Of a stretch of DNA of 32,265 nucleotides, positions 12,475-27,624 are shown piece by piece. The translations under genes and the position numbers were made by a program. Every line of letters begins with the position of its first letter. Within the stretch, counting starts at the first letter, position 1. Origin of the DNA: an uncultured bacterium (GTDB lineage Bacteria; UBP6; UBA1177; JAKLFG01); NCBI GenBank assembly GCA_937871295.1, contig CALMRE010000157.1, forward strand, positions 1 to 32,265, in the 5' to 3' direction. The notes below the pieces were generated by a model that was given only the letters and a program-made list of their open reading frames with translations, was not told the origin of the DNA and made no database searches.

Positions 12475-12885
12475 ATGGGAGTTCGGTTTCCCGTTAATGA
12501 GCAGGTCGCGAAAGAGGCGGCGCGTTTTCTGGTGGTCGGACTGGCGAACACCGCGCTTACCCTTGCGATCATTTTCGTTCTACTCCGGTTCGGGAGTTCG
12601 CTTCTGACGGCCAATATCATCGGCTACGGCACCGGATTTATTAATAGTTTCGTCTGGAACCGCCGCTGGACCTTCCGGAGCAGCGGAGATGTGTGGCGAG
12701 AAACGATGGTCTATTCGGTGGTCTGGGTCGTCTGTTATCTGCTCCAGATGGTGGCGTTGCTCCTCTCGGCGCGGTGGCTCGGGCTATCCGATATCCTCAG
12801 CACCCTTATCGCGATGCTCTTCTTTACCGGCCCGAATTATCTGGGGAATCGACTCTTCACCTTCCGGGCTGACCGCGCGGCATAA
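12475..12885 (+). CDS. GtrA-like membrane protein
   Basis: A 136-residue protein with four hydrophobic segments (about 20-40, 43-60, 80-100, 105-125). It carries the family signature NRRWTF (Asn60-Phe65 region) and the C-terminal counterpart GNRLFTF. GtrA-family proteins are proposed to flip polyprenyl-phosphate sugars for lipopolysaccharide or cell-wall glycan decoration. The ATG follows the asnB-like stop directly (TAGATG), so translation is probably coupled. It is the last gene of the operon, and its 3' end overlaps the convergent spermidine-synthase-like gene by 29 bases. Confidence 0.88.
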   Translation: MGVRFPVNEQVAKEAARFLVVGLANTALTLAIIFVLLRFGSSLLTANIIGYGTGFINSFVWNRRWTFRSSGDVWRETMVYSVVWVVCYLLQMVALLLSARWLGLSDILSTLIAMLFFTGPNYLGNRLFTFRADRAA

Positions 12886-14905
12886 CGAGCGCAGCGAACA
12901 TCCCGATGAGCGCCAGCACCCCCGCTGCGGCGATGGAGGATCGCAGATCATAGAGCGGCAGGATCGCCGCGCCGAACAGCAGTCCGCAGAGCGCCGCCCC
13001 CGCGAGATCGGCGACATAGAACGCCGTGCCCGAAGATCGCTCTTTCCCATAGTTCCGGGTTAGGTTTCCGATCGACAGACCGCCTAAAAGTCCGACGATC
13101 AAATCAAGCGCCACGTAGCCCGTAGCGCCGAGCGACCGGTCGGCGACCCACAGAAGCGCGGTGGCAAGGAGAGCCAGCGCCGCGATAGGCAACAAAGAAC
13201 TATATGATATCATACGGGATACTGACACTCCGGCGGTGGTGCCGAGCATAAAGGAGACGGTAAAAAGGGCGATAAAATGATAGATCTGTCCCACCTGCAC
13301 CTGCAGAAGCGTCATGAGGGCGAGTTGCAGGACAAAGGCGCTGCCGCTCACACAGAAGATCGCCCCACTCTGCGCCGGGGCCATCCGCCGCCGGAAGAAA
13401 AAGGCGATACCGGCGGCACAAAGGGTCGCAAAAGCGCCCGTTATCAGGAAGAAGAACAGCGGGCGGGCAGGCAGTGCGGTAATGACGGCGGGAAGCGGCG
13501 CGCCCAGACGGCGGGCGGTGTGACGGAGCGTCTCGAAGTAGGCGGCAGGGGTGAGCAGGCGGTTCTCGCGGGTCGCCGCCCGTTTCACCGCCGCGGTGGT
13601 CAACTGCCGGCGCATCGGCTCGAAAATGTCCTGCACCAGCGCCCCGTTGAACCAAGTCCCGTTCAGGCGGTTCCGTTCCATCCGTTCGATCACCACCGCA
13701 GGGTCGGCGGTCGGAAAATCGTTGTCTGCCGCGGCCCACAGATGATGGTCGGCCGGAACGAGAACAACTTCCCGAAATACTTCTTGAAGCGCCTTTTGCA
13801 CCGAACGGTTGAGCGCCGCCGTTTCGGGGGCCAGCATCCCCCGTCCGCCCGACAGGCCGACGACGATCACCGCGCCGGGGCCGTTGTGTTCCCGGAGGAA
13901 GTGGAAGAATTCGCGCGAGAAGAAACGGGAAAGCATCACCGAGGATGGATCGGGAAGGTCGATGATGATGAGTTCCTGCGGCGGCAAAGCGGTCATGACC
14001 GCGACCGGTTCCCCGGAACGAAGAATTACATTTTTCCCAAAAATATCGGTCGGATATATCTCGAACAGCATCGGTTCCTGCTCGATGACGGTGATGGTTG
14101 CGTGCGGCATCCGGGCCGCCAGCGCGACGGCGCTCCCCGATAACAAACCGCCGATGACGGCGATACGATGCGGAGCGGGGTGTTGGGTCAACACAAGTCC
14201 CGCGAATTCTTCCGCCGGTCGGTTCTCCCCGGCGACCCCCGCCGCCTGTCCGTTCCGGAAATAGGCGCGCTGTCCCTCCCGTTCGGTCGCGTCGAGCCGT
14301 CCGTAGCGTCCGTCGCGGGAGAATAGAAGCGTGTCGGGGAAGTAGCGCGCCGCGTAATGATCGCGGTAGACCGGATAGTTCACCGGCGAAAAGAGGTCGA
14401 GGAACAGATAGAACAATAGCGCCCCCGCCGCCATACCGCCCGATTCCATCAGGTAGACCGCGCCGGTCGGTTCGCGCCGATCACGCGCCGCTTCGACGCA
14501 GGCGGGAAAGGCAAGACCGCCGAGTATACACCCGGGGATGATCACCAGCGCCGCGACGGCGACCATCGCCGGTATCGACAGCGCCATACCGGCCACGGGG
14601 CTGAACGAAGCGGCCAGCGGCGCGATGAGAAATAGTTGGCCGACGGCTGCCAGAGACAACGCGATCAGGAGGAACGGCAACACCTTTCCCCGCTGCAGGA
14701 ACGGGAAGAACCGGAATGATATTGAACCGATACCGGTAAAGAGCATCCACAACGAAAGAGCGACCGCGACCACCAGTTCGAACGCCCCGGTCGCGATCAT
14801 CAGTTCCCGGATGAGGATGGTCTGCGTCAGCGCGGTAAGGAGCCCCAGCAGGAACGGGAAAAGGATAGAGCGGCCGAGCTTCCCCGACACTTCACCACCG
14901 GCCAT
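12857..14905 (-). CDS. Polytopic membrane protein with spermidine-synthase-like domain
   Basis: A 682-residue protein. An N-terminal bundle of hydrophobic helices (about 12-190) precedes a soluble Rossmann-like domain: RIAVIGGLLSG (about 245-255), acidic TVIEQEP (about 271-277) and IIIDLPDPSS (about 311-320). These resemble the SAM-binding and catalytic strands of spermidine synthases. A second helix bundle fills the C-terminus. The glycine motif is looser than the canonical GGGDG, so enzyme activity is uncertain. A longer frame begins at 15046, but its first 47 residues overlap the upstream radical SAM gene and look like out-of-frame coding. I chose the ATG at 14903-14905, which overlaps the upstream stop by 14 bases. 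Fused membrane spermidine-synthase-like proteins are common but uncharacterised. Coupling with the radical SAM gene suggests a shared, unknown pathway. Confidence 0.75.
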   Translation of the reverse strand: MAGGEVSGKLGRSILFPFLLGLLTALTQTILIRELMIATGAFELVVAVALSLWMLFTGIGSISFRFFPFLQRGKVLPFLLIALSLAAVGQLFLIAPLAASFSPVAGMALSIPAMVAVAALVIIPGCILGGLAFPACVEAARDRREPTGAVYLMESGGMAAGALLFYLFLDLFSPVNYPVYRDHYAARYFPDTLLFSRDGRYGRLDATEREGQRAYFRNGQAAGVAGENRPAEEFAGLVLTQHPAPHRIAVIGGLLSGSAVALAARMPHATITVIEQEPMLFEIYPTDIFGKNVILRSGEPVAVMTALPPQELIIIDLPDPSSVMLSRFFSREFFHFLREHNGPGAVIVVGLSGGRGMLAPETAALNRSVQKALQEVFREVVLVPADHHLWAAADNDFPTADPAVVIERMERNRLNGTWFNGALVQDIFEPMRRQLTTAAVKRAATRENRLLTPAAYFETLRHTARRLGAPLPAVITALPARPLFFFLITGAFATLCAAGIAFFFRRRMAPAQSGAIFCVSGSAFVLQLALMTLLQVQVGQIYHFIALFTVSFMLGTTAGVSVSRMISYSSLLPIAALALLATALLWVADRSLGATGYVALDLIVGLLGGLSIGNLTRNYGKERSSGTAFYVADLAGAALCGLLFGAAILPLYDLRSSIAAAGVLALIGMFAALVMPRGQPGR

Positions 14906-15995
14906 GTATCTTCTCGCCGCAGAAGGGACATTTCCCCTCTTTGAGGCGGTTCTCGCCGACCGCAAAGCCGTCCCGTTCGATGAGCCGTTTTTTGCACTTA
15001 GGACAGAAGGTATCTTCCCCCTCTTCGGTCGCGATATTGCCGACATAGACGAACTTCAGCCCCTCCTTCAACGCCGCCACCCGGGCGGCGGCAAGCTTCG
15101 CCGGCGGGGTCGGCGCCCGGGCGGTCAGTTTGTACTTGGGAAAAAATCGCGAAAAGTGGAGCGGTGTATCGGCGCCGAGGTTCTCTTTCACCCAGCGCGC
15201 CAGTTTCCGCGTCTCTTCCGGATCGTCGTTGGCGCCGGGGATCACCAGATTGGTCACCTCGAGGAAAACCCCCGCCGTCTTGAGATCCCGCAGGGTATCG
15301 AGCACCGGCTGGAGCCGTCCGGTGGTGTAATCGCGGTAGAATTCGTCGCGGAAGCCCTTGAGATCGATGTTGGCGGCGTCGATATATTTCGCCAGTTCGA
15401 ACAGCGGTTTCTCATTGATGTAGCCGCACGAGACGAGAATGGTCTTGATCCTCTTTTCGTGCGCCAGTTTGGCGATATCGCGCATGTATTCGAAAAAGAC
15501 CGCCGGTTCGGTGTAGGTGAACGATATGCTGTCGCTCCCGTTCTTTTTCGCCAACGCCACCACCTGCGCCGGGGTCATATCGTACGGCGTCACGCTGTCG
15601 GGGGTCGCCTGCGATATCTCCCAGTTCTGGCAGAAATTGCAGTTCAGGTTACAGCCGGCGGTCGCCAGCGACAGCGTTTTGGTGCCGGGGCGGAAATGGA
15701 AGAGCGGTTTTTTCTCGACCGGATCGTTGTTGAGCGCCACCGGCTGACCGTAGACCAGCGAATAGAGCGTCCCCTTGATGTTGCGCCGCACTTTGCAGAT
15801 GCCGGTCTGCCCGTCGGAGAGTGTGCAGAAGTGCGGACAGAGCTCACAGCGCACCTTGTTGCCGGGGAGAGAGACCGTATATTCGGCCTTGCGCAGGAGC
15901 GACACCTCGTCGGGCGACCGCCCCGCAAGATAGAACAGCGCCGGGGTCAGCAGGAGGATAAGCGCTACGAGGATGAGACGCGTCACGCGGTTCAT
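14892..15995 (-). CDS. amrS: AmrS-type (AmmeMemoRadiSam) radical SAM enzyme with N-terminal membrane anchor
   Basis: A 367-residue protein. The radical SAM cluster motif is CxxxCxxC at Cys115, Cys119 and Cys122 in AGCNLNCNFCQNWEIS. Before it is the family-typical cysteine cluster CELCPHFC...GICKVR (Cys50, 53, 57, 67), then LYSLVYGQPVAL and EKKPLFHF. The C-terminus ends in a zinc-ribbon-like pair, CPKC (331-334) and CPFC (356-359). The family is found with AmmeMemoRadiSam system proteins; its reaction is unknown. The oddity is a clear hydrophobic helix at residues 7-24 before the catalytic part, with Arg on the N-terminal side, so the catalytic domain may face outward or the helix may only anchor it. 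Ribosome site GGGGAGG lies about ten bases upstream. The gene begins 27 bases after the PilZ stop. Confidence 0.87.
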   Translation of the reverse strand: MNRVTRLILVALILLLTPALFYLAGRSPDEVSLLRKAEYTVSLPGNKVRCELCPHFCTLSDGQTGICKVRRNIKGTLYSLVYGQPVALNNDPVEKKPLFHFRPGTKTLSLATAGCNLNCNFCQNWEISQATPDSVTPYDMTPAQVVALAKKNGSDSISFTYTEPAVFFEYMRDIAKLAHEKRIKTILVSCGYINEKPLFELAKYIDAANIDLKGFRDEFYRDYTTGRLQPVLDTLRDLKTAGVFLEVTNLVIPGANDDPEETRKLARWVKENLGADTPLHFSRFFPKYKLTARAPTPPAKLAAARVAALKEGLKFVYVGNIATEEGEDTFCPKCKKRLIERDGFAVGENRLKEGKCPFCGEKIHGRW

Positions 15996-16475: not shown

Positions 16476-17231
16476 TTAGGAACGATCTTCTCTTAATCGT
16501 TCGAGCACCTGTTCGGCCGGCTCGTTCAGGGAATGGAAAAAGGGGCGGACCGGCACGGTATTGCACAGATCGTTCATCATGCGGTGATAGGCGGCAAAAT
16601 ACTCCTTTTTAGTGTAGGGCGTGCTCACCTGCCCTTCGATGAGATAGCGCCACAGCGCGTCGGGTTCGACCGGGCCATCCACCCGCGATGCCCCGTCGGT
16701 CGCCTTGAAAAGAAGATATGCCTGCCGGAGCGGAGCGGTGATGTTGCTGATGACCGCCTGTTTGAGTTTCGGTATCGTGTAGAACGGCGTCGAAGAGACG
16801 AACAATGCGCCATCGTGCCGGTAGAGGATGTTGGTCTCGTCGTTGCCGCCGGTCATGAGTCCGCGCATCTTGCGGGCCATCGTACTCTTGCCGGTCCCCG
16901 AACGGGCGAGGAACAGATGCCCGCCGCCGTCGCGATCAACGAGAAAACACGAATGGAGGAGAAGGAACAATTCCTCGCGTTCGAACCCTTCGTAGGCAAG
17001 CACTTTTTCCAAATGTAAAAAGGGGCGGTGCCGTGAGATGCGCCATGCGCCGCCAACGCGTTGCAGGTCGTTGAGATCGGCGCGCTCCTGCACGACTATC
17101 GTAATGTCACGCTGTTTTTGCGGCGCATCGCCGGCGGCCTCGAACAACGGCCATGAAACAGGGAACTTCGTCACGCCGTTACCGGAGACGTGCAAAGAGA
17201 TGTCGGCTATGTCAAAGCGACGAGAGAGCAC
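16476..17231 (-). CDS. HPr-kinase-like P-loop protein
   Basis: A 251-residue protein resembling HprK-related kinases. The Walker A loop is ARSGTGKST (109-117), preceded by a beta strand HLFL, and is followed by the family-typical GGNDETNIL (128-136), which corresponds to the Asp-containing strand after the P-loop in HPr kinase, and by FVSSTPF. It lacks the N-terminal domain of canonical HPr kinase/phosphorylase. Related short kinases occur next to PqqD and radical SAM genes, and homologues in lasso-peptide clusters phosphorylate the precursor. The GTG start has AAGGA five bases upstream. The start lies nine bases after the stop of the short cysteine-rich peptide gene at 17241-17408, so that peptide is its most likely partner (inference). 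Confidence 0.78.
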   Translation of the reverse strand: MLSRRFDIADISLHVSGNGVTKFPVSWPLFEAAGDAPQKQRDITIVVQERADLNDLQRVGGAWRISRHRPFLHLEKVLAYEGFEREELFLLLHSCFLVDRDGGGHLFLARSGTGKSTMARKMRGLMTGGNDETNILYRHDGALFVSSTPFYTIPKLKQAVISNITAPLRQAYLLFKATDGASRVDGPVEPDALWRYLIEGQVSTPYTKKEYFAAYHRMMNDLCNTVPVRPFFHSLNEPAEQVLERLREDRS

Positions 17232-17240
17232 AAAAGATCC

Positions 17241-17408
17241 TTACGGGTCTAACGGGTCTAACTTTTTGCATTTTACATCATTGGGGTCAGATTTGTAATT
17301 TAAGCAATTGCCACTACACCCCATGAGGGGATGTTGCATATTGCAATTAAAAAGTAGCTCTTTTTTGATAACAAACTCTTCCAATATGACAGGTTTTTCG
17401 TATCTCAT
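17241..17408 (-). CDS. Candidate RiPP precursor peptide 2 (55 residues, Cys-rich)
   Basis: A short gene found by reading the minus strand between the radical SAM and kinase genes. ATG is at 17406-17408 and TAA at 17241-17243, and an in-frame TAA three codons upstream fixes the start. The leader YEKPVILEEFVIKKELLFNC (residues 3-22) aligns without gaps to residues 2-21 of the peptide at 18953-19078: 9 of 20 identical and 5 more conservative. The remainder contains Cys31, Cys35 and Cys47, a CSGNC motif and a terminal LDPLDP. The K-P...EE...L-F-x-C pattern is typical of precursors modified by SPASM radical SAM enzymes. The ribosome site is weak (GATGG about ten bases upstream). It ends nine bases before the kinase-like gene. 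Peptide homology makes chance coding unlikely, but expression is unproven. Confidence 0.72.
   Translation of the reverse strand: MRYEKPVILEEFVIKKELLFNCNMQHPLMGCSGNCLNYKSDPNDVKCKKLDPLDP
17244..17261. repeat. Two tandem 9-bp units at the 3' end of precursor peptide 2
   Basis: CGGGTCTAA occurs twice back to back on the plus strand. Read on the minus strand it encodes the duplicated Leu-Asp-Pro at the peptide's C-terminus and leads straight into the TAA stop. Confidence 0.8.
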
Positions 17409-17438
17409 GCGATGTTACCATCACAAAAATTCTGGACA

Positions 17439-17467
17439 AAGATATCTTAAAGCGGCATAAAAGTCAA
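17439..17467 (-). promoter_or_regulatory. Promoter of the precursor peptide 2 / kinase unit
   Basis: On the minus strand TTGACT (plus 17462-17467), a 17-bp spacer and TATCTT (17439-17444) lie 30 bases before the peptide start. It begins right after the stop of the radical SAM gene, so the peptide-kinase pair can be expressed separately from the main cassette. Confidence 0.52.
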
Positions 17468-17483
17468 GCAATTTCTATTGCTT
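17466..17483 (-). terminator. Small hairpin after the radical SAM gene (weak terminator candidate)
   Basis: AAGCAAT and ATTGCTT form a perfect 7-bp stem with a 4-base loop, one base after the stop of the radical SAM gene. The following minus-strand sequence is only modestly T-rich (GACTTTTA), and the hairpin touches the -35 box of the next promoter. It may attenuate rather than terminate. Confidence 0.3.
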
Positions 17484-17484
17484 C

Positions 17485-18495
17485 TTAAAAATGACATGGT
17501 TCTGAGGAGTTGGTTTTTTCGGACTTCTGCAGTCCGCTTATCCGTTTCTTGATCTCGGCGATCCGTTTGCGCACCGCCGAACAGCCGCAGAGCGAACCGC
17601 CGCCCAATAACGCTTCGGCGGGACAAGGATTGCAGTACGCGAACAGGTCGCAGTCGTTGCATTCCCGGTCGCGGATGATGCACGGCCTCTCCGCCGCCGC
17701 CTTTCGCACCAGTGCGGCAAAGTCGTCGGTCAGCAGGTTCCCGAGCGGCACGGTGCATTTGCCGCAGGCGTAGATGTCGCCCGCACAGTCTATACGGAAA
17801 GTGGAAGGATCGCCGTAGTGGCAGAGGAACGAAGCCTCCTTCGGCGCATAAAAGTTCATCTCGTCGCCTTCGATACCGTACTGGAAACGGATCGCCTGCT
17901 CAAGCTCCGCTTCGGTCAATTTCACCGCCTCGACCTCGGGCCGCTTGTCGAACGAACTGAACAGGCCGTAATCGATGACCAGTTGCAGATCACGCTCTTT
18001 GGCAAAGGCGGTCAGCCGCGCGAGATCGGGGAGCGGATGCAGAAGCGGCGCGGCGAGCACGGTCTTTATGCCTGCCTCTCGCAGAAGGTCAAGGCCGGTC
18101 ATGATACGGTCGTACGCACCGGGGACACCGGCGGCGCGGTCGTGTTCGTTATGATCGGCCGAATAGAGAGAGATATGGACCGACCCGACATGGAGCGCCT
18201 TCAGCCGCTGTACCGCATCGCGGTCGAGCAGAAGTCCGTTGGTCTTCAGGTTGATGTAGAACCGGCGCTTGCGGGCCGCCGCAAGGATAGCCCACAGGTC
18301 GGGATTGGTGAAGGGTTCGTAGCCGCTGAAGGTGATGTCGAGATATTCATTATCGGCGAGGATGTCGAGCGCCCGCTCGATCTCGGCGAGCGTCATGAGC
18401 CGGTGACCGCAGTCCCGCGGCTGATAGCAGTGGAGACAGCGCGCGTTACACCGGTCCGCTATCTCAAAAAGGATGCCGGGGCGTTTGATGGTCAT
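17485..18495 (-). CDS. Radical SAM/SPASM peptide-modifying enzyme
   Basis: A 336-residue enzyme. The radical SAM 4Fe-4S motif is CNARCLHC with Cys16, Cys20 and Cys23. The partial TIM barrel follows, with FSGYEPFTNPDL (about 56-67) and INLKTNGLLL (81-90). The C-terminal SPASM/twitch region is rich in cysteine: Cys225, 237, 244 and 247, then Cys272, 279, 282, 288, 291, 303 and 305, enough for two auxiliary clusters. Such enzymes install thioether, C-C or other cross-links in ribosomal peptides. No RRE domain precedes the barrel, so the separate PqqD-like protein at 27268-27567 probably supplies leader recognition. ATG overlaps the stop of the peptidase gene (ATGA). It lies between the two short peptide genes that are its likely substrates. 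The reaction type cannot be predicted from sequence. Confidence 0.88.
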   Translation of the reverse strand: MTIKRPGILFEIADRCNARCLHCYQPRDCGHRLMTLAEIERALDILADNEYLDITFSGYEPFTNPDLWAILAAARKRRFYINLKTNGLLLDRDAVQRLKALHVGSVHISLYSADHNEHDRAAGVPGAYDRIMTGLDLLREAGIKTVLAAPLLHPLPDLARLTAFAKERDLQLVIDYGLFSSFDKRPEVEAVKLTEAELEQAIRFQYGIEGDEMNFYAPKEASFLCHYGDPSTFRIDCAGDIYACGKCTVPLGNLLTDDFAALVRKAAAERPCIIRDRECNDCDLFAYCNPCPAEALLGGGSLCGCSAVRKRIAEIKKRISGLQKSEKTNSSEPCHF

Positions 18496-18935
18496 AGGTG
18501 TTCCATGCCCCGCTCGCGGCCGGACAGTTTATTCTTCAACTCCGCGAACAACAGGCGCAACGGACGCGGCGTGTGGTGACGAATACGGTTCCGCAAAAGG
18601 TAGTACCAGAATGCTCCGCGTGACCGTTTTCCTTCGACCACCCCGACGATGTCGAACACCGATATCGGCGGATCGCAGTAGGCATTGTTGTCGCCTTTTG
18701 TCCGCGCGACGAACCCCCTCTTCCACACGAGACGGTGCGCCACGAACACTTCTCCCGAACGAAAGACCACCACATCGCCGGGACGCAAATGGTCATGGGT
18801 GACCGGCGCGATGTGGATAAGTTCTCCGGGTTTTATGGAAGGCAACATCGAATTCTGTGAACCGAACAGCACCACTCCGGGAGTGCCGCCGACGGCAAAG
18901 GTAGTGATGAGATGATCAATAGAAAGATCGGGCAT
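18492..18935 (-). CDS. S24/S26-type signal peptidase-fold protein (Sec11/SipW-like)
   Basis: A 147-residue protein with signal-peptidase motifs. GSQNSMLPSI (25-34) supplies the nucleophile Ser29. RPGDVVVF (51-58) is the following strand. AHRLV (66-70) and TKGDNN (79-84) match the Sec11/SipW arrangement, in which a His (here His67) rather than a Lys is the general base; Lys80 is present in the last box but is not at the usual dyad position. There is no clear transmembrane anchor before Ser29, unlike canonical signal peptidases, so it may work in the cytoplasm. Small proteins of this type are often encoded beside SPASM radical SAM and PqqD genes. Here the gene begins 17 bases after the peptide 1 stop, so leader removal from that peptide is an attractive but unproven role. 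Confidence 0.78.
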   Translation of the reverse strand: MPDLSIDHLITTFAVGGTPGVVLFGSQNSMLPSIKPGELIHIAPVTHDHLRPGDVVVFRSGEVFVAHRLVWKRGFVARTKGDNNAYCDPPISVFDIVGVVEGKRSRGAFWYYLLRNRIRHHTPRPLRLLFAELKNKLSGRERGMEHL

Positions 18936-18952
18936 AAAGAGGCCGAGAAGGG

Positions 18953-19078
18953 CTACCCTTCGCTTCCCTTGGTTAACAACTCACCTTCCATTTCGCAGAG
19001 TTCATCATTGAGAGTACAAGCGAAAAGCACTCGTCTTTCAATGATTTTTTCTTCAACTACTCGCGGCTTGATATACAT
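18953..19078 (-). CDS. Candidate RiPP precursor peptide 1 (41 residues)
   Basis: A very short gene between the giant lipoprotein and the peptidase genes. The minus-strand ATG (19076-19078) is preceded by GGAGGGAG with a 5-base spacer, a near-perfect ribosome site; an upstream in-frame ATG at 19094-19096 would add six residues but has no such site. TAG is at 18953-18955. Residues 2-21, YIKPRVVEEKIIERRVLFAC, align with the leader of the second peptide at 17241-17408. The tail has Cys21 and Cys28 in an acidic context (LNDELCEMEGE) and ends Lys-Gly-Ser-Glu-Gly. It starts 20 bases after the stop of the giant gene and 17 bases before the peptidase start, so it is part of the cassette transcript. 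I infer a ribosomal peptide substrate of the radical SAM enzyme. Confidence 0.78.
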   Translation of the reverse strand: MYIKPRVVEEKIIERRVLFACTLNDELCEMEGELLTKGSEG

Positions 19079-19098
19079 CTCAACTCCCTCCGACATTT

Positions 19099-22000
19099 TC
19101 AGTTACGATAGTAAAGTGTACAACTGCCAGCATCAACATTCCGGTTACACAGAACAAAACCATAAGACAATACCGTGGTCTGCAAATTACCGGAGGTTAT
19201 AGGCAAATCCTGATAAATTGAAGGATGGGTAGTGAAGAAGGTGTTCTGCGCGTTGTATAGGTACTGTGCCTTCGCCCCACTGATGAAGAAATCGACGCTG
19301 CCGTCGCCATCGATATCTTCCGTTGTGCCGGAACTGCCGATGCCCCATTCGCCAGCCTCGATGCCAACTACTTCATCCATGATGCCGCTTCTGGTGATCT
19401 GGTTGGTTCCTTCGGTCCAAGCACCCGGGATGACCGTGCCGGCGGCCGCGCCAAAAAAGAATCGTATTTTACCGTTGTCGATCAAAGCAAAATCGATATA
19501 AACATCGTTGTTGAATTCGCCGTAGAACATGGTTCTCAATTGGATGAGACCCGACACGGTGAAATCATAGGCTGCAACGCGCAGGTCGGAGAGCGATGCG
19601 TTCCCGTAGAATATCTCCGCTTTGGTCACCTTGGAACTTGTCGGATTAACATTGTCGTAATGCCCACCGACGAATGAACCATACGGAACCGTTCCATTTT
19701 TCTCGTTCTTGATGTTGCCAGCCTTCCTCACATTGTACCCGAATCGATCTCCGACCGCATTGCCAAGATAGGTGACCCCCACCTGAGTAGTGTAATCTCC
19801 TATACAGGTCTTTCCGCCAGCTCCTTTATCGTCCCCCAACAGAACAAAAACACGGCCTGTGCGGTCATCTGCCGTGCCGTTGCTTGGGTCGTCATAAAAA
19901 GCCTGTCCCACGGCAACATCCTGACAACCATCACCGTTAAAATCGTCTATGCCATCAATGTCATAGATGTTGTCTACAAAGGTCACCTTGTCCCCACGGG
20001 CCAGCTCGACTGAATTAGAAATACCGTAATAAATATGGAGGTTCTTGCCGCCAAGATCGCTCACTATAACATCCTTGCGATCATCACCGTTCATGTCGGC
20101 CGCGGCAAGACGGAATCCGAAAGAGGTCCCGGCATCGACCGGTTTTGTCAGTTCAAGTTTCGTCGGCGCACCCACAGCATTGCTGATGAACACATAGGCT
20201 TTCTGCTGACCCGAATCGGAAACGGCAAAATCGGTCTTGCCATCACCGTTGATGTCGCCCATGTTCTTTATGTTCATGGTATGTGACCCGGCCGATGTCG
20301 CTATCAATTCATGCGAGGTCAACTGCAACGCTCCTTTGTCTACAACATTGGTAGACAGAACGGGGGCGGTGTTTGTCGCAAGTATCGTGCCGTCCTGCGC
20401 GTAGACGCCGTCGCTGGCACGGACCGCGAAGCAATAGGGATCGCCGTTGCGGTGGATGTCGGCGGTCACGGTGTCGGCCACATTGGAGCGTTTTTTGAGG
20501 TAGAACAGGTAGTTCTGCGCCTCGCCCGCCGCTTTCGGGGTGACGAAATCGTCGCCGTTGAGCGACGGATCGGCCACCGAATAGTCGGTCAGCGGGATGA
20601 CCGCGACGCCGGTGTCGAAGACGCTCTCGCTGTCGTCGAGCGAACAGGCGCCGCCGTAAGCCTCGTATTTCACCTGATATTCGTACACGCGGTTCTGGAA
20701 TGCGCCGCCGTAGGCCGAGTTGTTGCCGATGATGGCGCTCCACTCGACGAAGGCCTCGCCGCGGGCCGGATCGGTGGTCACGGTCGGAGTGATCCCTTCC
20801 GGTTTTTCCAGATTGACATGGACGAAGATCGTCTTGTTGATGGTGTTGCCGGAGGGCTGTTCGGTTATCGTCACCAGCATCTCGATGTCGGTCTGACCGC
20901 CCACGACGCTGTCCTCGAAGGTCAGATCGTCGAACTCGGCGACCATGTCGGCGCCGACCTTCTCGATGTTGACGGTGGTGTTCCCGCCGATCGCGTCGAC
21001 CGGATCGACCGCCGTCAGGACGACCGTGCCGTGGTTCGGGTAACCGGCGATATCCTCGATACCGTCGATGGTAAAGATAAGACGGTTGGCCGAAGCGCCG
21101 TCGAGTTCGAGGGTGGTCGCGGTGTCGTGGTCGATATCGTCGTTCCAGCCGTAGCCGATCTCCCAAATTCCGGCGTGGACATAGGGTTCCGGGTTGACAT
21201 CGGTCGCCGGGTCGAGCGTCGGATCGGTGATATCGGCGCGGACATAGTAGGTGTCGGTAGCGGTGGTGACGCCGTTGTTGACCGACAGTTCGATGGTGTT
21301 CTCGACGCCGCCGGCGTTCAACGAAACGAACGCGAAGTCTGCGCGACCATCCAAAACATTGGAGCAGATATCGGCGCCGCCGTTGACGCTGATGCAGGCG
21401 TTGTTGGTGCCGTTCGGCGAATCGGTCTCGACATAGAGATTGTAGGTCGGCCCACCGTCGTTGCTGTTGAGCCATGTCGGTACGGTCTGCGTTCCGTTGA
21501 TCACCTTGTCGTTGGCCTTCAGGTGAAGCGTCGAACAGGCGACATCGGTCACCACCTCGACATCGATCTGCTGGTCGACCGGCAAGAGCGCGGTGTCGTA
21601 GACATTCAGATGGTCGTCGGTCACCTTGACCGTTAGACGCCAGAAGCCGTCGCCAAGCCGCAGGAGCGGAGCGGTCGCGGGGAATATCTGGTTCGCGCCG
21701 TCGAGGGTGGCGGTGAAGCCGTTCCACGACTTGCGGTTCCGCGCGGTGTCCTCGACGCCGCCGAGGGCCGTTATCGGGATCGCGAGGATATCGATGGTCG
21801 AGGCGGTCCCGGTCGGCGTCTGGAGTTTGGTGAGGTTGAGGTGCATCGTGAATTGGATGCCCGATTCGCCGGGATCCTCGTCATAGTCGGGATCGATGGA
21901 GATATCGAGCACCGTGCCGTCGGTCGGATAGGCGATAACGGCGTTGGGGGTCTTCGCGTCGACCTCGTAGGTCAGCGCGGCCACACGGACGTTGCCGCGG

Positions 22001-25000
22001 GCATCCGAAACGGTGATCTCGAACTCATGCTGATTGTAGGCGAGCGCCGGCAGGTTGATGGTGACGGTGGTGTCGACGATGGTCATTTCGCCCGCGGTGT
22101 AGGTGTAGGTCGACACCTCGGCGGCCGGATCGTCATAGTCGTAGATCGTATGTTTGACCACCGGGGTCGCGTAGTTCCAACCGTCCGTTATCTTGAACTT
22201 GAGTTGCTGGCCGGTCAATTCGTCGCCGACCACTGTGCCATCGCGCGCGGTGAGCCAGAGCGGATGGCCCGGGGTGGCGCCGGTCGGCCCTTGGAACAGG
22301 ACGCTCGGCGGGGTGGTGTCGACGATGATGGTCTTGGCGCTCTCGTCGGAGGTGTTGCCGCCGCAGTCGATAAGCGTCGCGCCGAAGGAGTTGGTCCCCT
22401 CCGGTATCGTGATACTCGTGAAGGTGGCGGTCCGGTCGCCCGCAACGACGGCGGAGTAAAGATTGCCGGTCGTCTTGTTGCGGAGCGTCACGGTGCGTCC
22501 GATGTCGATGGCATCCTGAATCGTCAGCACGATGGTCGCCTGCATCCCGTTGGCCGGTGTCGCGTCGAGATCCTCGGCCGCGATGAGAATGTCGTTGCTG
22601 TCGTCGTTGGTGATGACGAAGGAGGAGATGACCGGCTTATTGCGGTCGAAGGTGTAGGTGCGCTGGGTCGCCGGAAGCGCCGTCAGGTTGTCGGTGTAGC
22701 GGTCGATGCTGTCGACGCCGTCGTTGACCTTCGCGTAGAGTTTGTAGGTGCCGCACTTGTCGGGCAGATCGAGCGGTATTGAGACATCCTCGGTCGCGTT
22801 GCATAGCGATCCGACGGTAGCCTTCTCGGCCACCTTGACGTTGGCGTCGGCGTCCCAGATCTCGACCGTTTCGCCCGCTTCGAGATTCTTGGTGCGGTAG
22901 ACGAAACTCGGGACCGCCGAACCGGCCTTGTAACTGGTGCCGTTCGGCGGCAGATACCACTGGAAGGTCGGCGTGGTGGTGTTGAGCGAGAAGGAGGTGT
23001 TCGCCGAGCCGCTGTTGTCGGCGGCGTCGGTCGCGGTGACGGTGAGGGTGTAGGTGCCGTCGCCGCCGTCGAGCGTGTAGCCGTAGGAACTACCGCAGGC
23101 CCCCTCAACAAAGGTCGCGTCGGGCTTGTCGAAACGACAGGTGGTGGTGGTCGCGCCGGTCACGGTAAAGGTGATGGTGCCGGTCGTCCGGCGGGTACAG
23201 GCGTTGATCGGATCAATGACCACGGTGGGTGGCGTGTTGTCGACATCGAAGGTGGTCGACGGACCGGCGGCAAGCGCGGTGTTCCCCGCCGTGTCGCTGG
23301 CGGTCCCCGCCGCGATGCTGATGCCGAGCGTGCCGTTGCCGGTCACATTCGATATCGTTACGGTGCGGGTCGCCGTGCCGGAGCCGCTCACCGCGACGGT
23401 GCCGTTCGCGCCGCCGGTGGTGTTCAGCGTGATATTGCCCGCCGCCAAGGTGACGGTGTCGGCATTCGAGTAGGTGACGGTATAGAGAACCGAATCGCCG
23501 CTCTTCGCCACGGTCGCCGACGGCGCCCCAATGACTAGTGTCGGGGCGGTATTGTCGACCGTGAAGGTGGTCGACGGACCGGCCGCAAGGGCGGTGTTCC
23601 CCGCCGTATCGCTCGCCGTTCCGGCCGCTATCGAGATGCCGAGCGTGCCGTCGCCGGTCACATTCGATATCGTCACGGTGCGGGTCGTCGTACCGGTGCC
23701 GGTCACCGCGACGGTGCCCGATGCGCCGCCGGTGGTGTTGAGCGTGATATTGCCCACCGCCAGCGTCACACTGTCGGCGCCGGTGTAGGTGATCGTATAA
23801 GTCACCGAGGTCCCATTCTTCGCGACGGTCGCCGACGGCGCGCCGATGACAAGGGTCGGCGCATCGGTGTCTATCGTGATATCGAACGAACCGCTCGTCG
23901 ACCAATTGCCGAGCGCATCGCGACCTTGGACATAGAGCGTGTAATCGCCGTCGATCAGCGCGCTGCCCGGAGTAAAGCTGGTGTTGGAGGTCACGGTCCA
24001 CGAAGAGCCATCGTAGCTATAACGGAACTCGACCGTGTCGGTCGGGGTGTTCCAACTCCATGTGGGCTGGTTGTTGTTGGTCGGTGTCGCACCGGTCACG
24101 ACCGGCGCGTCGGGGCCGGTGATATCTATCTCGATGGTGAAATAACCGCTGCCCGACCACGTGCCGAGGTCGTTACGGGCCTGCACGAAGAGGGTATGGA
24201 ACCCTTCGGCGAGGGTGGTCGGCGTGAAGGAAAGTCCGGTGGTGGTGGTCCAGCCGGCGCCGTCGGTGAAACTGTAGCGGTATTCGACCGCATCGGTCAC
24301 CGCGCCCCACGACCATTCGGGGGTCGGGTCATTGGTCGGCGTGGTGCCGGTCACGACCGGCGCATCGGGCGCCGAAAGGTCGATCACGACCTCCTTCGAG
24401 CCGCTCACCGACCAGTTGCCCGCCGCGTCCTGCGCCTGAACATAGAGGGTGTGGTTCCCTGCGGTAAGCGCCGACCCCGGGGTGAAGGTCGTGTCGGTCG
24501 TTTCGGTCCAGTTCAGTTCATCGTAACCGTAGCGATAGTTGACCGCGTCGCCGACCGGTAGCCATGTCCAGTTGGGCGTCGTATCGTTGGTCGGGGTGGT
24601 GGCGAGCACCGTCGGGGCATCGGGCGCCGTCAGGTCTATCGTGATGATGAACCAGCCGCTCACCGACCAGTTGCCCGCCGCGTCGCGGGCCTGCACATAG
24701 AGGGAGTGATCGCCCGCGGCGAGCGCCGAGGCCGGGGTGAAGGCGAGATCGTTGGTCGTCGTCCAGTTCGTTTCATCGGTGCTGTAGCGATATTCGACCG
24801 CGTCGGTCACCGCGCCCCACGACCATTCGGGGGTCGTGTCGTTGGTCGGCGTTACGCCGGTCACGACCGGGGCGGCAGTCGCCGTGGTGTCTATGGTGAT
24901 GGTGAAACTGCCGGAGGTCGACCAGTTGCCCGCCGCGTCGCGGGCCTGCACGAAAAGGGTGTGGTCGCCTTCGCCAAGCGCCGGGGCCGGGGTGAAAGCG

Positions 25001-27216
25001 AGCTCGGCGGTCGTCGTCCAGTTCGTTTCATCGGTGCTGTAGCGGTACTCGACCGCGCCGGTCGGGGCGGTCCACGACCACGTCGGTGTCGTGTCGCTCG
25101 TCGGCGTCGCGCCGGTCACCGTCGGAGCGGCCGGGGCGGCGGTGTCTATCGTCCAGTTGAAGACGGTCGCGTCGCCTTCGTTGCCGAACGGATCGCGCGC
25201 CATGACCTCGAAAACATGAAGCCCTTCGGCGAGCGCGGTGTATGCTGCGGTGGCGGTCGTCGCATAGGTCGACCACGCACCGGAATCGATACGGAATCGG
25301 TATTCGCAATCGGCTTCACTGCACGAGAAGGCGAAATCGGCGTCGACCGACTGCGCATACCCGCCGTTGACCGTCGGGGTCTGATCGAGCGTCAACGCCG
25401 GCAGGGTCGCATCGACCTGCACGGTGATGGCGGCGGTGCGCAGGACCCCCAGATGCATGACCGACGCTTCGAGCGTGTCCTCGCCGTCGGGCAGGGTGAC
25501 CATGTCGAACAGCGTGAGTCCGCCGGCCCCTATCGTTTCGACGATCGCGTCGTCGCCGTTGACCGTAAGCGAAACCTCGGTGGTGGCCGCTTCGATGTCG
25601 GTGGTCCGGACGATGATCGCGCACTGGACGCCGCCCGCCAGTTGATCGCCGTCGTCGGCCGCGTTCAACTGCATGTTCATCGCCGGGGTCCGGGCGCAGA
25701 TGGTCTGGAAGGCTATCGCGGGCTCGTTGACATAAACCTTGAGCGGGATCTCGACCACCGCCTCGTTGCCGACGGCGTCGCGGGCGGTTGCCGCGAGTGT
25801 CAGCGACTCGTTGGTCGCGGTGAAGGATATCTCGTCGATGGAGTAGGCGCCGGTCCCGGTGGTCGTTTCGCCCAGCAGCGTCGTCCCGTCGCGCACCTCG
25901 ACCGCGACCGTTTCGGCCTGCATATCGGAGGCGGTGCCGGTGACCGCTATCTGGATCCCTTCGAGGTTCGCGTTGATATCGTCGACCGGAGTGAGGGTGG
26001 CGTTCTCGGCCGGGGCGGTCACGGTGATCTTGGGCGCGGTGATGTCGATGAACAGGCCGGTGACGGTCATCTGGCCGGTCGCCGAACTGTCGTCGTCCTT
26101 CATCACCACCGTAACGGCATGGGTATCCGCCTCGGTACCGCTTTCGGGCAGGGTGATGATCTGTTCCACCGTCGCGCCGCCGAGAGAAAGGGTCTCGTCG
26201 GGTTCGTCGGTCCCCGGCACGCCGTCGACGTAGATCTCTATGGTCGAACCGGTCGAACAGAGAGTGACATCGCTGATGATCAGAGCTTTCTGAAGGCCGT
26301 TGAGCGGGGCGCTCGTGTCGTCGGCCATGCCGAAGCGGTCGTCATTCTTGATATTGAGCGCGAATCCGCAGGACTGCGCCGAAACGACGCTGAAGGCGAG
26401 CGTGTCCTCGAACGCGCCGCTCTTCACCCGCAGCACGATGTTCTCCCAGATCGGGACCGTGACCGACGGGAAGGCGGCGACGCCGTCCTGTATCTCGGCG
26501 ACGCCTATCGCCGTTTCGCTGAATTCGTCAATGAACAGTTCGACCTCCTGCCCCTCGGGATAGCCGGTGGTCACCGCTTCCATCTTCACCTGGAACAGCG
26601 CGGTCCCGGCATCGAGATCGTCGTTATCGTCGAGCGTCGCCCCTTCGAGCATCGTCGGAACGGTGCCCCCCTTGTAGTAACGCATGACCAGCGTTTCGGC
26701 CTGCTGGTAGGTGGCGGTCAGGTTCGCGATCACTTTTTCCGCGGGACTCTGGGTCAGGTAGGCGGTCACGACATGGGACCCCTCCTCGAACGGGATGCGC
26801 AGGAAACGGGCGAAGCCGTTGACCAGTATCCCGGCATAACTTTTCGTTACGGCCGCGGCGGCGCCGTTGGCCGCGTCGTCGTCGGGCGCGGCGGCGGCGG
26901 AACTCTTCACCTCGAGCGTCACCGGCGTGCCATCCTTGAGGGGGGTGGCGGTGCCGGGCGTCTGTGCCGCGACGGTGATGTCTATCTGGATGATCCCGTC
27001 GCTTTCGTCGACATCGTCGGCAATGGTCAGCGTCTGACCGTCGGCGATATCCTGAAAGAGGAGGACCACCTCTATCTCGTGGCATTTCTTGTCGTCACCG
27101 CAGGCATAGCCTGTTTTACAGTCGGTGTCGGCACTGCACTGCTCCTTGGTGGAACAACCGCCCACAGCGAGGAACAGGAACATAACCCAAATAAGAGCAA
27201 CAACGAGACGCTTCAT
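19099..27216 (-). CDS. Giant repeat-rich surface lipoprotein with Ig-like and FG-GAP repeats
   Basis: A 2705-residue protein. The start is the ATG at 27214-27216, preceded by GTGGGAG; a GTG eight codons earlier is less likely. The signal peptide ends in the lipobox VGGC (Cys21) and is followed by a cysteine-spaced head (Cys26, 32, 38, 44). Many beta-sandwich Ig-like units follow. They include five tandem 85-residue repeats (about 690-1115, marked by PTNDTTPEWSW, YRYS and DAAGNWS) and two 105-residue repeats (about 1115-1330, TLVIGAPSATVAK). The C-terminal ~400 residues contain FG-GAP/integrin-like Ca-binding loops such as DINGDGKTDF, DMNGDDRKDV, DFNGDGCQDV and DIDGDGSVDF. Such architecture suits an adhesin or other long cell-surface fibre. 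It lies 51 bases after the PqqD-like gene and 20 bases before precursor peptide 1. Whether it takes part in peptide maturation or is only co-expressed is unknown. Confidence 0.88.
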   Translation of the reverse strand: MKRLVVALIWVMFLFLAVGGCSTKEQCSADTDCKTGYACGDDKKCHEIEVVLLFQDIADGQTLTIADDVDESDGIIQIDITVAAQTPGTATPLKDGTPVTLEVKSSAAAAPDDDAANGAAAAVTKSYAGILVNGFARFLRIPFEEGSHVVTAYLTQSPAEKVIANLTATYQQAETLVMRYYKGGTVPTMLEGATLDDNDDLDAGTALFQVKMEAVTTGYPEGQEVELFIDEFSETAIGVAEIQDGVAAFPSVTVPIWENIVLRVKSGAFEDTLAFSVVSAQSCGFALNIKNDDRFGMADDTSAPLNGLQKALIISDVTLCSTGSTIEIYVDGVPGTDEPDETLSLGGATVEQIITLPESGTEADTHAVTVVMKDDDSSATGQMTVTGLFIDITAPKITVTAPAENATLTPVDDINANLEGIQIAVTGTASDMQAETVAVEVRDGTTLLGETTTGTGAYSIDEISFTATNESLTLAATARDAVGNEAVVEIPLKVYVNEPAIAFQTICARTPAMNMQLNAADDGDQLAGGVQCAIIVRTTDIEAATTEVSLTVNGDDAIVETIGAGGLTLFDMVTLPDGEDTLEASVMHLGVLRTAAITVQVDATLPALTLDQTPTVNGGYAQSVDADFAFSCSEADCEYRFRIDSGAWSTYATTATAAYTALAEGLHVFEVMARDPFGNEGDATVFNWTIDTAAPAAPTVTGATPTSDTTPTWSWTAPTGAVEYRYSTDETNWTTTAELAFTPAPALGEGDHTLFVQARDAAGNWSTSGSFTITIDTTATAAPVVTGVTPTNDTTPEWSWGAVTDAVEYRYSTDETNWTTTNDLAFTPASALAAGDHSLYVQARDAAGNWSVSGWFIITIDLTAPDAPTVLATTPTNDTTPNWTWLPVGDAVNYRYGYDELNWTETTDTTFTPGSALTAGNHTLYVQAQDAAGNWSVSGSKEVVIDLSAPDAPVVTGTTPTNDPTPEWSWGAVTDAVEYRYSFTDGAGWTTTTGLSFTPTTLAEGFHTLFVQARNDLGTWSGSGYFTIEIDITGPDAPVVTGATPTNNNQPTWSWNTPTDTVEFRYSYDGSSWTVTSNTSFTPGSALIDGDYTLYVQGRDALGNWSTSGSFDITIDTDAPTLVIGAPSATVAKNGTSVTYTITYTGADSVTLAVGNITLNTTGGASGTVAVTGTGTTTRTVTISNVTGDGTLGISIAAGTASDTAGNTALAAGPSTTFTVDNTAPTLVIGAPSATVAKSGDSVLYTVTYSNADTVTLAAGNITLNTTGGANGTVAVSGSGTATRTVTISNVTGNGTLGISIAAGTASDTAGNTALAAGPSTTFDVDNTPPTVVIDPINACTRRTTGTITFTVTGATTTTCRFDKPDATFVEGACGSSYGYTLDGGDGTYTLTVTATDAADNSGSANTSFSLNTTTPTFQWYLPPNGTSYKAGSAVPSFVYRTKNLEAGETVEIWDADANVKVAEKATVGSLCNATEDVSIPLDLPDKCGTYKLYAKVNDGVDSIDRYTDNLTALPATQRTYTFDRNKPVISSFVITNDDSNDILIAAEDLDATPANGMQATIVLTIQDAIDIGRTVTLRNKTTGNLYSAVVAGDRTATFTSITIPEGTNSFGATLIDCGGNTSDESAKTIIVDTTPPSVLFQGPTGATPGHPLWLTARDGTVVGDELTGQQLKFKITDGWNYATPVVKHTIYDYDDPAAEVSTYTYTAGEMTIVDTTVTINLPALAYNQHEFEITVSDARGNVRVAALTYEVDAKTPNAVIAYPTDGTVLDISIDPDYDEDPGESGIQFTMHLNLTKLQTPTGTASTIDILAIPITALGGVEDTARNRKSWNGFTATLDGANQIFPATAPLLRLGDGFWRLTVKVTDDHLNVYDTALLPVDQQIDVEVVTDVACSTLHLKANDKVINGTQTVPTWLNSNDGGPTYNLYVETDSPNGTNNACISVNGGADICSNVLDGRADFAFVSLNAGGVENTIELSVNNGVTTATDTYYVRADITDPTLDPATDVNPEPYVHAGIWEIGYGWNDDIDHDTATTLELDGASANRLIFTIDGIEDIAGYPNHGTVVLTAVDPVDAIGGNTTVNIEKVGADMVAEFDDLTFEDSVVGGQTDIEMLVTITEQPSGNTINKTIFVHVNLEKPEGITPTVTTDPARGEAFVEWSAIIGNNSAYGGAFQNRVYEYQVKYEAYGGACSLDDSESVFDTGVAVIPLTDYSVADPSLNGDDFVTPKAAGEAQNYLFYLKKRSNVADTVTADIHRNGDPYCFAVRASDGVYAQDGTILATNTAPVLSTNVVDKGALQLTSHELIATSAGSHTMNIKNMGDINGDGKTDFAVSDSGQQKAYVFISNAVGAPTKLELTKPVDAGTSFGFRLAAADMNGDDRKDVIVSDLGGKNLHIYYGISNSVELARGDKVTFVDNIYDIDGIDDFNGDGCQDVAVGQAFYDDPSNGTADDRTGRVFVLLGDDKGAGGKTCIGDYTTQVGVTYLGNAVGDRFGYNVRKAGNIKNEKNGTVPYGSFVGGHYDNVNPTSSKVTKAEIFYGNASLSDLRVAAYDFTVSGLIQLRTMFYGEFNNDVYIDFALIDNGKIRFFFGAAAGTVIPGAWTEGTNQITRSGIMDEVVGIEAGEWGIGSSGTTEDIDGDGSVDFFISGAKAQYLYNAQNTFFTTHPSIYQDLPITSGNLQTTVLSYGFVLCNRNVDAGSCTLYYRN
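23216..23850 (-). repeat. Two 315-bp tandem repeats in the giant lipoprotein gene
   Basis: The landmark GCCGACGGCG recurs at 23831 and 23516, a period of 315 bp (105 residues). The two encoded units are nearly identical (APSATVAK, GNITLNTTGGA, TVTISNVTG, GISIAAGTASDTAGNTAL), while the DNA copies differ mainly at silent positions. That suggests an old duplication kept by protein selection. Confidence 0.8.
23870..25150 (-). repeat. Five ~255-bp tandem Ig-like repeats in the giant lipoprotein gene
   Basis: The segment encoding (T/V/E)ID-x5-AP-x-V starts near 25150, 24888, 24633, 24380 and 24125, and the array ends near 23870. The period is about 255 bp (85 residues). Each unit contains TPT-N/S-D-x-TP-x-W-x-W, Y-R-Y-S/G and a terminal (D/N)-x-x-G-x-WS. 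Confidence 0.8.
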
Positions 27217-27267
27217 GCTATACTCCCACTCATGTTTCACTATCGAAACCGGTTGCGGATGATAACC

Positions 27268-27567
27268 TCACCCTCCGGAATTGTCAACAATTTGTTCGAC
27301 CAGTTGACGGTCGATAAGGTCGCGCAATATTTCGTGAGTGTCGCTCTCCAAGGTGCCGCGATCGACACCTTCGGCCGAGAACTTTTCATACAAAGCGTCG
27401 ACGATGGCGGCGACAGTCCGCTTCCCGTCGAACAGTTCCCAGATGATCCCCGCCGTCGCGTTGATGGAAATGATCTTCTCGACGAGCGGCGAGACGATGG
27501 TCACCGTTCCGTCCTTCATCTTGCGCCACGCGATCTCGTCGCGGACCCGGTAGACATGATCGTTCAT
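27268..27567 (-). CDS. PqqD-like protein (RiPP recognition element family)
   Basis: A 99-residue PqqD-family protein. The fold is visible as beta strands around VYRVRDEIAWRKM and VTIVSPLVEKIISIN, followed by the typical TAGIIWELFDGKRTVAAIVD and a C-terminal helical part (EILRDLIDRQLVEQ). PqqD-like domains bind the leader of precursor peptides and present it to radical SAM enzymes. The start (27565-27567) is supported by GAGGGAG; the longer frame from 27624 runs through the promoter and is rejected. It is the first gene of the cassette, although the radical SAM partner is ~9 kb downstream. Many such proteins also sit beside HprK-like kinases, as here. Confidence 0.87.
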   Translation of the reverse strand: MNDHVYRVRDEIAWRKMKDGTVTIVSPLVEKIISINATAGIIWELFDGKRTVAAIVDALYEKFSAEGVDRGTLESDTHEILRDLIDRQLVEQIVDNSGG

Positions 27568-27596
27568 ACGGTACTCTCCCTCAAGAACAGGGGCCC

Positions 27597-27624
27597 ATTG
27601 TATGCGCCGCGTCCCGTTTTTCAA
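27597..27624 (-). promoter_or_regulatory. Promoter of the PqqD-giant lipoprotein-peptide-peptidase-radical SAM unit
   Basis: On the minus strand TTGAAA (plus 27619-27624), a 16-bp spacer and TACAAT (27597-27602) lie 29 bases before the PqqD-like start. All genes down to 17485 have the same direction, with gaps of 51 bases or less, so this single promoter could drive about 10 kb. Confidence 0.6.

Follow-up and report, generated by a model that had tools for sequence, protein, structure and literature searches.

Two related short peptide genes beside a giant lipoprotein, an HprK-like kinase and a radical SAM enzyme: probable precursors of an LPP-like RiPP in a small bacterial phylum

The window (the whole stretch of DNA that was analysed, 32,265 nucleotides) carries on its minus strand a series of genes in the order PqqD-like RRE, giant lipoprotein, peptide A, S24/S26-type peptidase, radical SAM enzyme, peptide B and HprK-like kinase:

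27268..27624, minus strand: PqqD-like discrete RRE (PF05402, 49.1 bits, cut-off 23.4; alignment); the start may be at ~27567
19099..27240, minus strand: giant lipoprotein of ~2700 aa with Ig-like and FG-GAP repeats; its stop lies 20 bp before peptide A
18953..19078, minus strand: peptide A, putative type 1 precursor, 41 aa (leader MYIKPRVVEEKIIERRVLFAC, tail TLNDELCEMEGELLTKGSEG; RBS GGAGG); orthologues at the same place in G002, G003 and G004
18492..18935, minus strand: archaeal-type signal peptidase I-like protein, probable leader peptidase (PF00717, 24.9 bits; motifs S-M-x-P, H-R and K-G-D-N-N; alignment, phyletic profile)
17485..18495, minus strand: radical SAM enzyme (PF04055, 88 bits) with a SPASM-like C-terminal Cys pattern
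17241..17408, minus strand: peptide B, putative type 2 precursor, 55 aa, with a YEKP leader and 4 Cys; type 2 relatives adjoin the radical SAM gene in 5 other genomes
16476..17231, minus strand: HprK-like kinase, probable precursor kinase (Walker A GxGKST, invariant N-D)

Both short ORFs of the initial annotation are confirmed, as are their cysteine counts of two in A (full sequence MYIKPRVVEEKIIERRVLFACTLNDELCEMEGELLTKGSEG) and four in B (full sequence MRYEKPVILEEFVIKKELLFNCNMQHPLMGCSGNCLNYKSDPNDVKCKKLDPLDP). The sequence directly 5' of the start of A is cGGAGGgagttgagATG; an alternative in-frame ATG at 19096 would give a protein of 47 aa, and the homologues of A start at, or at most one residue from, the position of the 41-aa start. 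At 126 nt (A) and 168 nt (B) neither gene is clearly under the common limits of gene callers, contrary to what had been suggested. The two peptides align without gaps over 20 residues, with the nine identities that had been reported for them and with six further positive-scoring pairs, where five conservative ones had been counted. Their best ungapped local score is 63, compared to a maximum of 53 over 5000 shuffles of B, and in a six-frame search of the 3.45 Mb genome A and B match only each other (E ~0.045). The description of the two genes as flanking the radical SAM enzyme applies to B, which lies between the radical SAM and the HprK-like genes, but not to A, which is separated from the radical SAM gene by the peptidase gene.

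A radical SAM protein with 82-83% identity is encoded in three other genomes of the family, and peptides A and B are kept in all of them. Thus, as anticipated in the initial annotation, homologues retain the leader and its position: 4/4 genomes with the same radical SAM enzyme possess both peptides with an invariant Y-x-K-P-x3-E-E...F-x-C leader, in which the Y, K, P, E, E, F and C are identical in all eight sequences, and members detected with a leader profile across the phylum (see below) occupy the matching place. B precedes HprK in three of the four family genomes and follows it in G002. The pooled pN/pS ratios, which are uncorrected pairwise values from few sequences, are 0.31 for A (leader 0.21, tail 0.42) and 0.28 for the leader of B, with differences mostly at third positions; they lie below the dN/dS near 1 that had been named as telling against the genes, and indicate purifying selection. 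A and B are therefore real, related and conserved genes, whose leader is under purifying selection. The RiPP-like design proposed earlier, with a constant leader, a variable tail and two precursors sharing one PqqD protein, is supported. In the tails we found no Ser or Thr conserved at one fixed place, hence the phosphorylation site is not obvious. We considered a C-terminal Ser as the target of the kinase, as in paeninodin, and rejected it as a general solution, with only both G007 peptides, one of those of G008 and that of G027 ending in Ser. An [L/V]-[F/Y/H]-A motif in the precursors resembles a signal-peptidase site, but some orthologues carry T, N or K at -1, so that no exact cleavage site follows from it.

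A leader HMM built from 11 peptides of six genomes and run on 28 genomes of the phylum detected matches (E<1e-6) in 11 of them, five of which are g8 genomes that the training set did not contain. At each of the five g8 loci the peptide gene is found between a giant lipoprotein gene and an HprK-like gene, and the gene order in this genus is PqqD, lipoprotein, peptide and HprK. The first 24 residues of the g8 peptides are identical (MKKNYQKPEIIEEIELDRKVVYAS), and their DNA exhibits 99 differences at third positions versus 4 and 4 at the others (8 in total; pN/pS 0.02). The g8 tails differ in length and sequence and keep their Cys residues (2-Cys tails). None of the five g8 loci contains a radical SAM gene; elsewhere in these genomes there are weak radical SAM matches only, except in G024 (E 1e-42, contig 5, unlinked). 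Two further loci have no linked radical SAM gene: G001 (same family, 65% complete) with the order giant lipoprotein, MTYQKPVILEESSFRLSLYGPSQGCTTGEFECDGPGEQPV and HprK, and G027 (another family, outside the class) with PqqD, giant lipoprotein and MKMKKKYIKPVLETEEILERVVLGCSLQEGACDPKAGTSTS. In G027 the genes for HprK, signal peptidase and NTP_transf_5 additionally form a block in convergent orientation. In G025 and G026 (another family) an NTP_transf_5 gene is adjacent to a signal peptidase-like gene (L119:7917-9352 and L120:7025-8457), which suggests that these gene pairs are divergent relatives of the system, with precursors beyond the reach of the leader HMM.

The partner genes follow the peptides closely. 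Strong matches to the HprK-like kinase (E<1e-50) occur in exactly the 11 leader-positive genomes of the 28. PqqD is found in 10 of these 11 (in G021 the contig begins inside the lipoprotein gene) and also in G006 and G009, whose contigs break inside the lipoprotein gene. A homologue of the signal peptidase is present in 10/11 leader-positive genomes, even where it is unlinked. Within g8 this homologue, unlinked to the peptide, occurs in 4/5 peptide-positive versus 0/10 peptide-negative species, and NTP_transf_5 in 5/5 versus 0/10; these counts are not independent, since the positive g8 species may form a single clade, and the co-occurrence may correspond to one event. Outside g8, NTP_transf_5 was also detected in G005, G006, G025 and G026; in the own genome it is unlinked (G000 contig 268), and only in G027 is it linked to HprK and the peptidase. 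Three partners, which the initial annotation had overlooked, accompany the peptides most consistently: the HprK-like kinase, the archaeal-type signal peptidase and the giant lipoprotein, whose gene lies immediately upstream of A.

The assignments of the kinase and of the signal peptidase come from scores under the NCBIfam cut-offs. The HprK-like kinase has no Pfam match; its family shows weak matches to ScmC (11/12 members), HprK_rel_A (10/12) and HprK_rel_B (7/12), and an AlphaFold model of modest quality (mean pLDDT 67) gives the HPr kinase/phosphatase 1knx as the top PDB match (E 8e-5, probability 1.00, with low TM-scores). The signal peptidase-like protein scores 49.1 bits against TIGR02228, below the cut-off of 51.85. 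In the radical SAM enzyme the pattern C-x14-G-x4-C ... C-x2-C-x5-C-x2-C ... C has its Cys residues invariant in the family alignment; the SPASM assignment is that of the Cys pattern only, with no SPASM profile match. Searches of plasmids with this enzyme returned distant matches only. No MsbA-like transporter was recognised by eye among the ORFs of the window.

Several other genes were noted near these partners. The window encodes an AmmeMemoRadiSam-system radical SAM protein (14892-15995, minus strand; TIGR04337, 388 bits) that has a hydrophobic segment at its N-terminus and is kept nearby in L005. A spermidine synthase-like domain occurs in a large membrane protein near HprK, both in the window (12857-15046, minus strand) and in g8 loci (L051:9861-12260, L054:10644-13040, L055:7171-9567), and this may be a further conserved neighbour. 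In 4/4 g8 genomes (L096, L097, L098, L099) there is an overlap between the gene for the signal-peptidase homologue and that for a family 2 glycosyltransferase, which may reflect the addition of a sugar to the peptide or a separate role.

The peptides fall into two paralogous precursor types. Type 1 genes (Y[I/L/Q]KP, including A) follow the giant lipoprotein gene in 13/13 loci. Type 2 genes (YE[K/R]P, including B) occur in 6/6 genomes with a linked radical SAM enzyme and were found in no others; they are placed after the radical SAM gene or, in G002, after HprK next to the radical SAM gene. Linked copies of the radical SAM gene are restricted to family f1 and two genomes of f3. Since type 2 is found only together with a linked radical SAM gene and type 1 always after the lipoprotein gene, the radical SAM enzyme and the second precursor appear to have joined an RRE-kinase-type 1 core together. 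In this family one enzyme set may modify two different cores, as had been proposed, but G007 and G008 have their own HprK-radical SAM pair for each peptide type. The radical SAM enzyme is accessory and absent from several members: the loci of the five g8 species, G001 and G027, with peptide, lipoprotein and HprK but no linked radical SAM gene, led us to reject it as the defining enzyme, which the initial annotation had taken it to be. We accordingly regard as unlikely a sactipeptide- or ranthipeptide-like RiPP in which the SPASM enzyme would link the Cys residues of A and B by thioether or C-C bonds, with the kinase and the peptidase in secondary roles. Such chemistry would agree with the conservation of Cys in both peptides, the SPASM-like Cys pattern, the identity of the nearest solved relative by profile (the sactisynthase SkfB, 6efn, 1.1e-17) and the position of B right next to the radical SAM gene. 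However, the enzyme reaches none of the NCBIfam maturase cut-offs, and the same leader family in g8 has 2-Cys tails without a linked enzyme and with mostly weak, distant matches elsewhere in the genomes, so that Cys is retained in the absence of the radical SAM enzyme. Its most likely contribution, judging from its family, is the modification of at least the tail of B.

The closest parallel is provided by the LPP RiPPs described by Popov et al. 2026 (PMC13381572), which comprise an RRE, an HprK kinase, a SipW-like peptidase, an NTP transferase, a transporter and YxxP precursors. It was demonstrated by experiment that the RRE, LppK (HprK kinase) and LppS (SipW-like peptidase with Ser-His-Asp) process the YxxP precursors; LppK polyphosphorylates a Ser of the core and LppS, guided by the RRE, takes off the leader. 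The present locus shares with LPPs a discrete RRE (PF05402 over the cut-off), an HprK-like kinase (with weak family matches and the HPr kinase fold), an archaeal-type (SipW-like) peptidase in which S-M-x-P, HR and KGDNN are kept and TIGR02228 falls just under the cut-off, clusters of one to three YxxP precursors, constant at the N-terminus and variable in the tail, and NTP_transf_5 in the same genomes. It differs in the leader, where YxxPx[hydrophobic] of the LPP motif YxxPxVLxHQxIxFETxxS is present and the VLxHQxIxFETxxS part is absent, in the constant giant lipoprotein partner, in the radical SAM enzyme and second precursor type of some lineages, and in NTP_transf_5, linked here only in G027. 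The LPPs were stated to be restricted to Bacillota, whereas the phylum studied here is one that we read, from its small size (28 genomes), as not belonging to Bacillota. We read the locus as an LPP-like system of new composition, in another phylum and with its own leader.

Our joint reading, to which we assign a probability of about two in three, is that A and B serve as the precursors in an LPP-like RiPP system that combines leader binding by an RRE, phosphorylation by an HprK kinase, cleavage by a peptidase and pairing with a lipoprotein, with an added radical SAM enzyme. These activities, as well as the radical chemistry and the role at the surface, are proposed from the protein families. 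The PqqD protein would bind the YxKPx[V/I/L] leader as a discrete RRE and present the precursor, the HprK-like kinase would add phosphate to a hydroxyl residue of the tail, and the leader would be cut off by the archaeal-type signal peptidase (18492-18935). The peptide would be made together with the giant cell-surface lipoprotein encoded just upstream, which makes the cell surface the probable site of action of the product. The radical SAM enzyme and the second precursor type (B) would have been added in this family and in two relatives.

Other known systems resemble the locus less. Paeninodin-type lasso peptides share a discrete RRE, an HprK kinase, a YxxP/WxxP leader and a nucleotidyltransferase, and the phosphorylation that HprK homologues carry out in lasso clusters has been reviewed (PMC8498205). 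A lasso peptide was rejected since a stand-alone B2 peptidase was not found, with partial matches inside proteins of ~320-530 aa and a weak match below the cut-off in the own genome. There is also no macrolactam cyclase in the locus; the AsnB protein encoded at 10615-12474 is full-length and has glycosyltransferase genes as its neighbours. In the SynChlorMet cassette (ScmC, ScmD, ScmE, ScmF) HprK-like, PqqD-like and SPASM radical SAM proteins also occur together, and ScmC is the best-shared family match of the kinase; however, the scores here are far under the cut-offs (19.9 of 125, 22.3 of 100, 51 of 400, 49.5 of 400) and there is one radical SAM enzyme. A literature search on SynChlorMet found nothing. 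GeoRSP is the best family match of the radical SAM enzyme and likewise has a PqqD partner, but the scores are 84.8 of 400 and 23 of 100 bits; those for both systems thus stay under the NCBIfam equivalog cut-offs. Radical SAM-SPASM RiPPs share the radical SAM core and the SPASM Cys pattern, and differ in that a radical SAM enzyme does not accompany every precursor here (five g8 loci, G001, G027).

It is very unlikely that A and B are small partner proteins whose N-terminal motif regulates the kinase or PqqD, or aids the export of the giant lipoprotein. The N-terminus is the most conserved part of the peptides, the type 1 gene is invariably placed behind the lipoprotein gene and no exporter was recognised beside the peptide gene, but YxxPx[hydrophobic] is a known RRE-binding motif in a locus encoding a discrete PqqD, the tails show the variation in length and sequence seen in cores, and a signal peptidase-like gene co-occurs with the peptides. 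Chance ORFs of no function have a negligible probability, with shortness as the sole point in favour, and are ruled out by orthologues in several families and by the third-position bias, in addition to the RBS and the fixed neighbours.

A second likely RiPP precursor family (MAKKPVIVKKETAKPTANTDQCQYCCGKTIC) adjoins a PqqD-radical SAM fusion (425-437 aa, three genomes) as well as a leucine-rich repeat protein, and in another family the same repeat protein is accompanied by a divergent copy (MMKPQITKGTKTSEQSSDTCQYCVGRSIC):

L019 ~9505-9610 (own genome, contig 165), minus strand: second precursor family
L020:10027-10122: second precursor family
L021:2065-2160: second precursor family
L022:6584-6694: second precursor family
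L023:18505-18594: second precursor family

The LPP-like reading of A and B would place a RiPP logic reported in 2026 from Bacillota only in a small other phylum, for which we found no LPP-like system in the searchable papers. Around a fixed core of RRE, kinase and peptide, the relatives form a natural series of gain or loss of the radical SAM enzyme and of the second precursor, and comparisons within this series therefore allow a test of what each enzyme contributes. The giant surface lipoprotein, as a constant companion, is a lead to where such peptides may act. That the lipoprotein (~1600-2700 residues) itself serves as the acceptor or carrier of the phosphorylated and, in some lineages, radical SAM-crosslinked peptide is a proposition of low probability; if true, the peptide would not be freely secreted but would form part of a RiPP-decorated surface structure.
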